Part shown: positions 14,954 to 63,737 of the stretch, one piece after another
Position numbering within the stretch: the first letter of the stretch is position 1
Layout of the letters: every line of letters begins with the position of its first letter
Source of the DNA: Natrarchaeobaculum aegyptiacum
Lineage (GTDB): Archaea > Halobacteriota > Halobacteria > Halobacteriales > Natrialbaceae
DNA: 64,000 bases
Assembly (NCBI RefSeq): GCF_002156705.1
Contig: NZ_CP019893.1
Coordinates: 1,612,001-1,676,000, forward strand
Reading direction: 5' to 3'
The notes under the pieces: model-generated
The model's input: only the letters and a program-made list of their open reading frames with translations
The model's database searches: none
Told to the model about the DNA's origin: nothing
Position numbers and translations under genes: made by a program

Positions 14954-15289
14954 CGAATCGTCTCCAGTGGAGCCTAGCACGACGGGATTGAAAAGGTGTC
15001 CATCGACGTCTCCGCGTCTGCCCCGATCGCTCGACCGATAGTTTCGGTGACCGACCTGTTCTCGAGGCGAAACGAAGGGGTTGCAGTGGCGGGGATGCTG
15101 CCGCTCCAGATGCGCCCCCACTGTCACAGATTTTGCCACCGGAAACGTTCAGGAGACGAAGACGACCGACCACGCGAACACAGGTTACTCGATCGACATA
15201 TTGAATAGCGCACGGGAAAACCGTTACACCGACCCATGTCCCCGCTTGACCTCCTCCCGCGCCTGAAGACGAGGGTATGCGCTCGCACT
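14954..15289. other. intergenic region between divergent genes
   Basis: This 336-bp stretch lies between fni (minus) and a membrane protein gene (plus). It holds the presumed fni promoter near 14985-15000, an ORB-like element at 15061-15085, and an AT-rich patch (catattgaatagc, about 15197-15209) that may serve the plus-strand gene. No convincing gene is present. Confidence 0.5.
15061..15085 (+). repeat. ORB-like element between fni and a membrane protein gene
   Basis: CTCGAGGCGAAACGAAGGGG followed by TTGCA matches the 3' half of the origin boxes (GAAACGAAGGGGT) exactly, with a poorer TCCA half. The copy at 35081-35104 has the same TCGAGGCGAAAC left side. Confidence 0.6.
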
Positions 15290-23509: not shown

Positions 23510-25114
23510 TTAACTGAACTTCTGGACCGTCACCTCGAGCGTGTCGAGGTCGACGATGGGGGCGTAGCCGGAGTCGGGGTCGATGTTGACGCTCTTCTGG
23601 AAGTCGGTCTGGGCCTGCCAGCACCCGGAGTTGATCGCGAGCACGTCGTGGTACTTTCCGAAGCCGAGTTTGTGGACGTGGCCGGTGTGGAAGATGTCCG
23701 GCACCTCGTCGATGACGAGGTAATCTTTCTCTTCGGGTGCGAGCCGGGTGTGGCCCCCGAACTGCGGGGCGACGTGGCGCTTTTTCAGGAGGTGGTACAT
23801 CGCCTTGTGAGGCTCGTCGTAGCTGGCCTTTTCCTCCGGCAATTCGGCGATCACCTCGTCAAGCGAGACGCCGTGGTACATGAGGACGGAGACACCCTCG
23901 AGAGTAACCATCGACGGATTGGAGACGATGCGGGCGTCGTGGGCGGTCATGATCTCCCGGATGTCCTCGTCGAATCCCGGCTGGGGTTCTGCGAGCCGAA
24001 CCGCGTCGTGGTTGCCGGGGATCATGACGATCTCGACGTCCCCCGGCACGAGTTTGAGGTACTCGCTGAACGCCTCGTACTGCTCGTAGATGTCGACGAT
24101 GTCGAGTTCCTCGTCCTGGTTCGGGTAGACCCCGACGCCCTCGACCATGTCGCCGGCGATCAACAGGTACTCGACGTGCTGAGCTGCGGGGGTGTGCAGC
24201 CAGTCGGCGAAGGCCGTCCAGGCGTCGTGCATGAACTCCTGACTGCCGACGTGAACGTCACTGATCAGCGCCGCCTGGACGTGACGGTCGGCAGTCGACG
24301 GCTCGTGCGTCCGGGGTACGTCCGGGAAGAACATCGAATCGACGAAGGCGATTCCCGAATCCCCAGAGAGCGTCCCCTCCATCGCCAGCACCTCGTCACA
24401 GAGCAGTTCCTCGACGAGGTCGGCGTACTGGCGGTCTTTCATCACGAGCCACGGGAAGGTCCCGGTGGCGTCCTCGAGTTCGATCAGCCAGTGACCGCTC
24501 GCGGTCGAACGAACGTCGTTGACCAGCCCGACCATCGCGACCTCCTCACCGCCGGGCATGTCCTCGATCGTCGCCGCGGGACGGTGGTTGACCCGCCCAC
24601 GGAGCTTCGAGCCGAGGCGCTCGAGGCGGTCCCGGAAGACCGACACGAAATCCTCGTACTCGCCGGTCCCGGTACTCTCGCCGGTCATGTCGTTTGCGAT
24701 CTCGAGCGATCGCAGGGCCGGGTCGGCAGATCGACCCGCGTCAGTAGACCCCCCCGTTTCGACTGGAGACGGCGATGGAGATTCACCCGAATGGGTGGGG
24801 GTCGCTCCAGTTGAAACGGAGGGGTCGGCGTCCCCGGCGTCGGGAACTTGATCTCGGTCGTTGCTCCCTGCAGGAGCCGCCGCCGAGGAGCCATCGGAAT
24901 CGCCAGCCGTGACGTCCTCGCGGTCGTTCGCGATCGCCGCCTCGACGTGGTCGGTCCGGATCACGAGTACGTCGTCGTCGACATTCTCGAGGACCGTCTC
25001 GAGTGCACGGGCCGGGTCGTCGGCTGCGGCGAGTTTCGTCACGGCCTCACGGTCGGCGTTGTAGCCGCAGCTTGCGAGTTCGCTGACGATACGGGCCGCT
25101 CGCTCGAGTGGCAC
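23510..25114 (-). CDS. polB: DNA polymerase D small subunit DP1
   Basis: A 534-residue small subunit of the archaeal family D replicative polymerase, with 3'-5' proofreading exonuclease activity. The N-terminal helical domain (PLERAARIVSELASCGYNAD, about 1-65) is followed by a low-complexity linker rich in Ser, Pro, Gly and Asp (about 66-130), an OB-fold (about 190-275), and a calcineurin-like exonuclease domain with ISDVHVGS, LIAGDMVEG, MIPGNHDAVR, MYHGVS and HTGHVHKLG. All metal motifs are intact. The linker DNA holds two inverted ORB-like elements (24747-24770, 24804-24825). In haloarchaea this gene commonly lies near orc1 at the origin, as here. The large subunit DP2 is not in the window. 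Confidence 0.95.
   Translation of the reverse strand: MPLERAARIVSELASCGYNADREAVTKLAAADDPARALETVLENVDDDVLVIRTDHVEAAIANDREDVTAGDSDGSSAAAPAGSNDRDQVPDAGDADPSVSTGATPTHSGESPSPSPVETGGSTDAGRSADPALRSLEIANDMTGESTGTGEYEDFVSVFRDRLERLGSKLRGRVNHRPAATIEDMPGGEEVAMVGLVNDVRSTASGHWLIELEDATGTFPWLVMKDRQYADLVEELLCDEVLAMEGTLSGDSGIAFVDSMFFPDVPRTHEPSTADRHVQAALISDVHVGSQEFMHDAWTAFADWLHTPAAQHVEYLLIAGDMVEGVGVYPNQDEELDIVDIYEQYEAFSEYLKLVPGDVEIVMIPGNHDAVRLAEPQPGFDEDIREIMTAHDARIVSNPSMVTLEGVSVLMYHGVSLDEVIAELPEEKASYDEPHKAMYHLLKKRHVAPQFGGHTRLAPEEKDYLVIDEVPDIFHTGHVHKLGFGKYHDVLAINSGCWQAQTDFQKSVNIDPDSGYAPIVDLDTLEVTVQKFS
24747..24770 (-). repeat. ORB-like element inside the DP1 gene, minus orientation
   Basis: On the minus strand GTCTCCAGTCGAAACGGGGG continues into a G-run and TC. 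It is a near-complete match to the origin boxes at 28831 and 29132. It encodes linker residues of about 115-123 (SPVETGGST). Confidence 0.75.
24804..24825 (+). repeat. ORB-like element inside the DP1 gene, plus orientation
   Basis: GCTCCAGTTGAAACGGAGGG is followed by GT. It differs from the origin box at 29132-29157 at two or three positions. With the copy at 24747-24770 it forms an inverted pair 33 bp apart, the same relative arrangement as in the origin. Confidence 0.75.
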
Positions 25115-26204: not shown

Positions 26205-28130
26205 TTACTTCTGTTTCTCGAATCTCGCCTGGACGAACGGCTGGACGTCGTCGATGTCACCCAAACGCGAATCAGACGTCAGGACAGCCTCGGTCTCCTC
26301 GAGCGGGACCGAGAGGTTGATCTCCTTCGTCCGGCCGTAGCGTCCCTTCGAGACGACGACCGCGTTGACGATCCCGAGCATGTCGAGTTCGCTGATGAGG
26401 TCGGTGACGCGACGCTGGGTGAGCACGTCGGCGTCGATCTCCTCGCAGAATCGCTTGTAGATGTTGAACACCTCACCGGTGTTGATGCTGTGGACCCCGT
26501 TTTTCTCGAGGGAGATGATCGCGAAGAGGACGAGTTTGCTCTGCGTGGGGAGGGTGCGAACGACCTCGACGACGCGGTCGAGTTCGATCTTGTCCTGGGC
26601 TTCGCGCACGTGGCGTTCCTCGACGGTCTCGGCCTGCGACCGTTCGGCGAGTTCGCCCGCCGTCCGCAGGAGGTCGAGTGCTCGCCGGGCGTCCCCGTGT
26701 TCCTGTGCGGCGAACGCAGCACAGAGCGGGATCACGTCGTCCGAGAGCGCACCCGCCTTGAACGCCACGTCGGACCGGTGCTCGAGGATATCCCGGAGCT
26801 GATTCGCATCGTACGGTGGGAAGACGATCTCCTCTTCACCGAGTGAAGATTTCACCCGCGGGTCGAGGAAGTCAGTGAACTTGAGGTCGTTACTGATCCC
26901 GATGATCGATACCCGGGAGTTCTCGAGTTCGGAGTTCATCCGCGAGAGATTGTAGAGGGTGTCGTCGCCGCTTTTCTCGACGAGTTTGTCGATCTCGTCG
27001 AGCATGATCACGACCACGCGCTCGTCGTAGTCGACGGCGTCGAAGAAGACGCTGTAGACGCGGTCGGTCGGCCACCCGGTCATCGGCACCTCTTCGAACG
27101 ACTCGGCGTCGTCTTCGAGTTCCTCGATTCGATCCTCGATGGCTTCGCGGGAATCGAACGGTGTCGACTCGAGTGGGTGGTCGTTTCCGCCCGGACCCCG
27201 GTTCCCTTCGACCACTTCGCGGTTGCCGTCGGCAGGACGCTCCGCGGCGTCGACGTGTTCCCGTCCGTCGGTGGCCGACTGCTGTCGAGTGGATCCCCCA
27301 TCGGCCGACCCCTCTGTTTCTGGTGGAGATGGCGACTCAGTCGGTGATTCTTCCGCTGGAGTCGGTCCAGCCGAACCAGTCGAATCAACCGACCCAGCCG
27401 AACTAGCTGAATCACGGTTATCGGCAGGAGACTCTGCCTCCCGATTCTGCTGTGACGTCGGCGAGTCGGCGTGAGAACCGTGTGGGTCACGGGATGGGTT
27501 ACTCGAGTGGTGATCGGGTTGGGTAGATCCGTCGACCGACGCTGGCTCCGGGCGATCCGGATCGGTCGTGGCGTCGGCTTCCGCCATGGAATCTCGTCGC
27601 TGCTCGTACTCGTCGACGGTCTCGAGCAACGACTCGAGTGAGTCGATCCGATCGTCGATCCGGGCTTCGTTCTTCTCGATGAACTTGTTCGCCAGTTGCG
27701 CGAGCACGCGATACTGGGTATCGGTCACTTCGCAGTTGATGTACTCGACGTCGCAAGGAACGCTGTACTTCTGGGAAGTGCTCTCGAGTTCCTTGCTGAC
27801 GAATTTCGCGCTGGCGGTCTTCCCGGTTCCCGTCTTCCCGTAGATGAGGATGTTCGACGGGGTCTCCCCTCGGAGTGCAGCGACGAGAATCGTCGCCATC
27901 TTGTTGATCTGGTCGCTCCGGTGGGGGAGTTCGTGTGGCGTGTACGACGGGCGAAGGACTTCCTTGTTCTCGAAGATCGGTTCGCCGCTGAGCAAGTCGT
28001 CGAACAGTCCCTGGTTGGATTCGTCGTCGCCGAGATCGGAACTCTCGAACGGAGAAGAAAATCCTGCCGGTCCATCTGACTCGAGCGCGTCGTTACCCAG
28101 TGATCGTGAGTTCCTGTCGTCGTCTGACAT
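26205..28130 (-). CDS. orc1: Orc1/Cdc6 replication initiator
   Basis: A 641-residue origin-binding AAA+ protein. Walker A (IYGKTGTGKTAS, about 97-107) and Walker B (VVVIMLDEIDKL, about 372-383) are intact, as are sensor 1 (GISNDL), sensor 2 with the ARR loop (HGDARRALDLLRTAGE) and a C-terminal winged helix (about 545-641). Between the Walker motifs sits an unusual hydrophilic insert of about 145 residues (about 181-325) rich in Ser, Pro, Asp and Glu. Haloarchaeal Orc1 encoded beside oriC1 is known to be long, but this insert also carries an ORB-like DNA element. The gene abuts the gene-free origin region. The start MSDDDRNSRSL at 28130 is preferred to an upstream extension that overlaps the origin. 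Confidence 0.96.
   Translation of the reverse strand: MSDDDRNSRSLGNDALESDGPAGFSSPFESSDLGDDESNQGLFDDLLSGEPIFENKEVLRPSYTPHELPHRSDQINKMATILVAALRGETPSNILIYGKTGTGKTASAKFVSKELESTSQKYSVPCDVEYINCEVTDTQYRVLAQLANKFIEKNEARIDDRIDSLESLLETVDEYEQRRDSMAEADATTDPDRPEPASVDGSTQPDHHSSNPSRDPHGSHADSPTSQQNREAESPADNRDSASSAGSVDSTGSAGPTPAEESPTESPSPPETEGSADGGSTRQQSATDGREHVDAAERPADGNREVVEGNRGPGGNDHPLESTPFDSREAIEDRIEELEDDAESFEEVPMTGWPTDRVYSVFFDAVDYDERVVVIMLDEIDKLVEKSGDDTLYNLSRMNSELENSRVSIIGISNDLKFTDFLDPRVKSSLGEEEIVFPPYDANQLRDILEHRSDVAFKAGALSDDVIPLCAAFAAQEHGDARRALDLLRTAGELAERSQAETVEERHVREAQDKIELDRVVEVVRTLPTQSKLVLFAIISLEKNGVHSINTGEVFNIYKRFCEEIDADVLTQRRVTDLISELDMLGIVNAVVVSKGRYGRTKEINLSVPLEETEAVLTSDSRLGDIDDVQPFVQARFEKQK
27307..27330 (-). 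repeat. ORB-like element inside orc1
   Basis: On the minus strand ATCTCCACCAGAAACAGAGG followed by GGTC. It matches the box core (CTCCA-GAAAC-GGGGTC) and encodes about residues 267-275 of the Orc1 insert (SPPETEGSA), parallel to SPVETGGST in DP1. Confidence 0.65.
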
Positions 28131-28142
28131 TCGTCGGTCGTA

Positions 28143-28166
28143 CACCCCCCTATTTCGAGTGGAGAT
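28143..28166 (-). repeat. ORB-like element next to the orc1 start
   Basis: On the minus strand ATCTCCACTCGAAATAGGGG is followed by GGTG. It lies just upstream of the orc1 start codon (28130), over its probable promoter, so bound Orc1 could repress its own gene. Confidence 0.7.
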
Positions 28167-28830: not shown

Positions 28831-28853
28831 CACCCCTTCGTTTCCACTGGAAC
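28831..28853 (-). repeat. origin recognition box, left of the AT-rich element
   Basis: On the minus strand GGTTCCAGTGGAAACGAAGG continues GGTGGGG. It contains the palindromic TTCCAGTGGAA centre and the G-string of haloarchaeal ORBs. Confidence 0.85.
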
Positions 28854-29131: not shown

Positions 29132-29157
29132 TCTCCAGTTGAAACGAAGGGGTGGGG
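29132..29157 (+). repeat. origin recognition box, right of the AT-rich element
   Basis: TCTCCAGTTGAAACGAAGGG continues GTGGGG. It is the strongest match in the window together with the inverted copy at 28831-28853. Confidence 0.85.
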
Positions 29158-31947: not shown

Positions 31948-31970
31948 TTTCCAGTCGAAATAAGGGGGTT
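31948..31970 (+). repeat. ORB-like element downstream of oapC
   Basis: TTTCCAGTCGAAATAAGGGG followed by GTT. It lies 52 bp after the oapC stop codon, 2.8 kb from the origin box at 29132. Confidence 0.65.
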
Positions 31971-35115: not shown

Positions 35116-35139
35116 GAACCCCCTCATTTCCACTCGAGT
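35116..35139 (-). repeat. ORB-like element (second of a tandem pair)
   Basis: On the minus strand ACTCGAGTGGAAATGAGGGG then GTTC. The pair has the same orientation with start points 35 bp apart. Confidence 0.65.
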
Positions 35140-63713: not shown

Positions 63714-63737
63714 TTTCCACTCGAAACGAAGGGGTCT
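63714..63737 (+). repeat. ORB-like element after tRNA-Gln
   Basis: TTTCCACTCGAAACGAAGGG followed by GTCT. Nearly perfect match to the origin box, 34.5 kb from the origin. It lies between tRNA-Gln and the end of the convergent oxidoreductase gene. Confidence 0.75.

Follow-up and report, generated by a model that had tools for sequence, protein, structure and literature searches.

What are two ORB-like boxes doing inside the gene for DP1, the small subunit of PolD? This question was addressed in a window of 64,000 nucleotides (G000:C1:1612001-1676000) within a haloarchaeal genome of 3.93 Mb, where orc1 lies upstream of DP1 and oriC1 is found between 28.8 and 29.2 kb (Table 1).

Two opposed ORB cores within the DP1 gene

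Both of the opposed boxes that the original prediction had placed within DP1 are present and are exact to the ORB core. The two 22-bp sites occupy the disordered N-terminal linker, about 290-365 nt into the gene, with box A reading along the DP1 sense strand, where it encodes SPVETGG, and box B running antisense to DP1, its complement encoding PSVSTG. The boxes face outward. Their opposite orientation and closeness are as had been proposed, although the spacing given at that time, 33 bp, has to be corrected to the 34 bp measured between the 22-mers. The expected likeness to the geometry of the origin, minus the AT-rich spacer, was also borne out, the spacer between the DP1 boxes being 65% GC and an AT-rich element being absent.

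Table 1 Coordinates of genes and ORB-type boxes in the window
Feature	Position	Strand	Sequence	Score and remarks
Satellite ORB without G-string	15060-15081	plus		26.6 bits
DP1 (PolD small subunit) CDS	23510-25114	minus		PF04042, 59.6 bits; ORF of 534 aa
DP1 ORB core box A	24748-24769	minus	TCTCCAGTCGAAACGGGGGGGT	29.8 bits; exact to CTCCAGTNGAAACGNNGGGG
DP1 ORB core box B	24804-24825	plus	GCTCCAGTTGAAACGGAGGGGT	32.9 bits; exact core match
orc1 (oriC1-type Orc1/Cdc6) CDS	26205-28130	minus		PF09079, 111 bits
ORB in orc1 coding linker	27308-27329	minus		28.7 bits; exceeds all 400 synonymous shuffles
orc1-promoter ORB	28144-28165	minus		27.1 bits; ends 13 nt upstream of orc1 ATG
oriC1 ORB	28832-28853	minus		34.8 bits; G-string tail GGGGTGGGGG
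oriC1 ORB	29132-29153	plus		36.4 bits; G-string tail GGGGTGGGGG
Satellite ORB without G-string	31948-31969	plus		31.0 bits; intergenic, about 3 kb from oriC1
Satellite ORB-like box	35118-35139	minus		21.0 bits
Satellite ORB	63714-63735	plus		38.9 bits; about 35 kb from oriC1; syntenic in related genomes

Sites were scored with a 22-nt weight matrix built from 240 oriC sites, all of which came from the intergenic stretch preceding orc1, with DP1 excluded. When the 400-kb neighbourhood was simulated ten times with a third-order Markov model, the highest score reached by chance was 13.6 bits, compared to 29.8 and 32.9 bits for the DP1 boxes. Perfect matches to CTCCAGTNGAAACGNNGGGG number four in the entire 3.93-Mb genome, namely the DP1 pair, a single oriC box and another site at a distance of 54 kb, and all ten genome-wide matches with two or fewer mismatches fall between -14 and +114 kb from oriC1. 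A chance origin of the boxes was ruled out by the Markov simulations together with a reversed-pattern control, which produced zero matches in 12 of 12 genomes.

Spread of the pair and its conservation as DNA

The DP1-to-oriC stretches of 100 further genomes were compared with that of the present genome, giving a sample of 101 that covers ten families of one order, sampled unequally. At a threshold of 20 bits, at least one DP1 box was found in 95 of the 101 genomes and both in 62, counts in which every genome weighs the same whatever its relatedness, although the linker on either side of the boxes has diverged until its composition is close to background. Loss from close relatives, which had been named as grounds for abandoning the prediction, is therefore not the pattern observed. 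The sense box reaches 20 bits in 89 of the 101 DP1 genes and the antisense box in 68. When the best box scored at least 15 bits, the offset between the boxes was exactly 56 nt in 81 loci, 53 nt in nine, 68 nt in two, 74 nt in two and 77 nt in one, the differences all being multiples of three, as the coding frame demands.

The pair was seen as well among 80 named loci (for example in Haloarcula, Halomicrobium, Haladaptatus, Natrinema, Natronorubrum and Halorubellus), within which the relatives of Haloarcula hispanica have strong boxes, the DP1 boxes of Haloferax relatives are weak and Halorubrum has kept the sense box alone. Both boxes are lost in one locus of the larger sample, L117 (G293), indicating with the previous two cases that the element is dispensable in places. 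The pair was absent from all 18 outgroup loci of the phylum and, on this comparison, appears to be a haloarchaeal trait. Matches of 17-18 bits in two outgroup loci (L154 and L161) were not counted, since their position is another one, within the conserved catalytic domain, where they agree with the protein sequence. Separately, in four loci of outgroup family f11 (L153:6526-6547, L144, L149 and L150), an ORB-like box was observed about 300-420 bp behind DP1; the one in L153 sits in a TYW1-looking radical-SAM gene (peptide SPVEIMGSS), where protein constraint is possible.

Synonymous codon shuffles that preserve the protein and draw on the pooled codon usage of the DP1 genes were used as a comparison. 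The summed box scores of 100 of the 101 DP1 genes exceeded all 1000 shuffles, L117 being the sole failure, and the mean best box scores were +28 and +23 bits as observed versus -6 and -11 bits after shuffling. Across the 81 loci with an offset of 56 nt, information per column was 1.42 and 1.44 bits in the boxes, compared to 0.29 bits in the spacer and 0.26-0.28 bits in the flanks, and within the boxes it was highest at third codon positions (1.50 and 1.63 bits), the opposite of coding constraint; such per-column values are somewhat inflated, the sites having been located with the matrix, a bias from which the shuffle test is free, as the same maximum was taken on both sides. Whether the boxes would outlast the drifting linker as DNA had been suggested as a check, and they do so in about 100 genomes of ten families as well as in the 80 named loci. 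This supports the view that the DP1 boxes are under selection as DNA and constitute a candidate binding element of the Orc1 type.

A constellation of ORBs around oriC1

The DP1 pair had been treated as an isolated feature, which proved to be mistaken, as a larger constellation of ORBs includes it. In the present genome, 17 ORBs of at least 20 bits were found in 400 kb, where the simulation maximum was 13.6 bits. Genome-wide scans, which used IUPAC patterns rather than the matrix and covered 12 mostly single-contig genomes, placed 104 of 112 matches to TCSASNNGAAAYNNNGGGGK within 200 kb of oriC1, compared to 12.6 expected if matches were uniform, and with the 20 kb on either side of oriC1 left out, 36 of 44 matches were still within 200 kb versus 4.5 expected. 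The satellites number about 4-18 per genome and many are single boxes. A near-perfect box, mostly of 34-39 bits, lies some 20-40 kb from oriC1 among neighbour genes common to many genera. The satellite at 63714-63735 has a partner box on the opposite strand at 64054, just beyond the window. This partner (L013:16054-16075) falls where a flavin oxidoreductase gene encodes a Gly/Ser-rich segment. In G007-G012, boxes of the CCAYNCGAAACGARGGGG type also recur at about 100-240 kb from oriC1 as tandem direct pairs on one strand, with 100-250 bp between the two members.

The orc1 gene carries boxes of its own. Of 86 loci, 72 have a box at the orc1 start; its end is typically about 13 nt short of the ATG, so that it covers the core promoter, an arrangement that suggests orc1 autoregulation in haloarchaea. 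The start codon in the window (MSDDDRN...) was itself placed by inference, at the conserved ATG 13 nt past the promoter box. After this box and its orthologous sites, a conserved RCGNGTACGACG often comes next. The box in the body of orc1 is likewise supported by synonymous shuffles in 31 of 43 loci of its own family.

The boxes fall into two classes by their tails. A G-string tail, defined as at least four G among the five bases after the core, was found on 87% of the boxes in oriC pairs, 1% of those in DP1 and 0% of those in the promoter or body of orc1. Neither DP1 box of the window has the GGGGG that trails the oriC ORBs. The spacer of the oriC pair is 48% GC and includes a 60-bp stretch at 33% GC. 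In L035-L038, all of one genus, the G-string oriC pair was observed 0.3-1.1 kb downstream of DP1 and not upstream of orc1.

Published ORB surveys searched the intergenic regions adjoining orc/cdc6 genes (PMC3528665), and one of them retained repeats with a G-string only (PMC4595724), so that the class lacking the G-string would be missed by design, and published ORB maps leave out this whole class of site. A literature search, largely without subscription journals, returned no report of ORBs inside DP1 or of a class without the G-string, and the set of such ORBs around oriC1 looks to be previously unreported.

Candidate roles of the DP1 pair

Given initiator-type boxes that lie outside the origin and have neither a G-string nor an AT-rich element, we propose that the DP1 pair and the satellites dock Orc1 without initiating replication and, through titration, determine how much initiator is available, a reading to which we assign a probability of roughly 0.55 on the sequence evidence. 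Each box would dock one Orc1 monomer by sequence-specific contacts, and Orc1 docked in this way would be unable to start replication, since the G-string and the AT-rich unwinding element are both missing. The DP1 pair and the other satellites would buffer free Orc1 and, being near oriC1, would be copied soon after it fires, doubling the sink and delaying re-initiation. The ORB on the core promoter of orc1 would close a negative feedback on the supply of Orc1, and a feedback on DP1 possibly accompanies titration. The more inclusive proposal, in which the entire constellation without G-strings (DP1, orc1 body, orc1 promoter and the syntenic satellites to about 100-200 kb) would time oriC1 firing through titration and feedback together, falls somewhat short of an even chance. 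Counting against titration, the sink formed by about 4-18 satellites per genome may be a weak one should Orc1 be plentiful.

The chief competing explanation is that Orc1 at the pair regulates the DP1 gene, acting, for example, as a roadblock and linking polymerase supply to free Orc1, as appears to happen at orc1. We consider this rather unlikely overall, and it is favored by the loyalty of the pair to DP1. In four genomes (G059, G060, G111 and G303), rearrangement has separated the oriC pair from DP1 by 57-193 kb, and the same place in DP1 nonetheless has at least one strong box in all four and both boxes in three. Tight linkage to oriC is not required for the DP1 boxes, and a function needing oriC at 4 kb is therefore unlikely and was rejected. 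A DP1-specific role accounts at least as well as titration for the retention of the pair in DP1 after oriC has moved away. The carriers here are moreover replication genes, DP1 and orc1, the latter also having an ORB just before its ATG in many loci. A regulatory role is harder to reconcile with the position of the pair well inside DP1 and not at a promoter, with the equally strong satellites in or beside unrelated genes such as the flavin oxidoreductase gene 35 kb away, and with L036, in which the oriC pair lies just behind DP1 and the DP1 boxes have decayed; its relative L037, arranged likewise, has kept them. In L117, which has lost the boxes, oriC is some 224 kb off if the contig is circular.

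Less probable again is a role for the constellation, the DP1 pair included, in bridging or marking the origin region in the manner of parS, with Orc1 serving chromosome organization or segregation. The gathering of sites within about 200 kb of oriC1 is a spread resembling that of bacterial parS, and inverted pairs could favor bridging, but many satellites are single boxes and we know of no archaeal precedent for Orc1 bridging or marking an origin region.

Selection on something other than a DNA-binding site is very improbable. Were the peptide motif (SPVETGG or PSVSTG) selected and the resemblance to ORBs incidental, the occurrence of the same peptide, SPVETEGS, in the Orc1 linker would be accounted for. 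The codon choice, however, opposes the preference of the genome, with nearly or wholly invariant third bases in the rare codons GTT (7% of codons for the amino acid), ACT (5%), GGA (7%), TCT (2%) and CCA (6%); the second box is antisense and encodes another peptide, and some satellites are intergenic. The peptide motif was rejected on the synonymous shuffles and these invariant rare codons. Retention of the inverted repeat as a hairpin in the DP1 mRNA is no more credible, even with two largely complementary 22-mers 34 nt apart. The boxes do not covary, and the hairpin was rejected on this basis: identity between boxes of the same genome was 0.798 compared to 0.794 between genomes (P = 0.23), indicating that the boxes evolve independently toward the ORB rather than toward an RNA stem. 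Pairability showed no excess (P = 0.74), Halorubrum retains a single box and the sequence agrees with the oriC ORB. The least probable reading, a second, minor or dormant replication origin, has the outward-facing inverted pair of oriC1 in its favor and is opposed by the lack of a G-string and of an AT-rich element and by a spacer of only 34 bp at 65% GC.

Relation to known systems

The core TCCA(C/G)NNGAAACGNNGGGGT and the inverted, outward-facing arrangement are shared by the DP1 pair and the G-string ORBs of oriC1 in Haloferax volcanii and Haloarcula hispanica (PMC3528665). The DP1 pair differs in lying within coding sequence, in having neither the G-string nor the AT-rich spacer, and in a box separation of 34 bp compared to about 280 bp in oriC1.

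How re-initiation at oriC1 is prevented is poorly understood in archaea with Orc1/Cdc6, and a single published case of haloarchaeal titration was found, on oriC2. In Haloarcula hispanica, the ORB-rich region oriC2D downstream of cdc6E represses oriC2, likely via titration of Cdc6E (PMC3936714), and thus resembles the sites described here in having ORBs outside the origin that are thought to titrate an initiator. The 11 ORBs of oriC2D are contained in a single intergenic region of 722 bp and belong to another origin/initiator pair (PMC3936714), whereas here two boxes lie in a distant coding gene, the others are dispersed over about 200 kb and conservation is order-wide. In bacteria, Bacillus subtilis deprived of six non-origin DnaA-box clusters initiates early, and these clusters and datA of Escherichia coli (PMC5295017) are initiator sites outside the origin, like the candidate sites here. 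They belong to another domain and bind another initiator, the haloarchaeal set being a putative counterpart in function for which no role in nucleotide hydrolysis is known.

With conserved and mapped candidate sites for non-initiating Orc1 docking, titration and feedback become directly testable through synonymous recoding. The DP1 boxes further indicate that the code of a DNA-binding site can mould a protein-coding linker and, if the proposal is true, the gene of a replicative polymerase would have been bent to carry part of a titration system. With regard to initiator genes in the present genome, the only other gene found with a Cdc6_C domain is at 1095-1382, right where the contig begins, indicating that the numbering starts at this second orc gene and not at oriC1.
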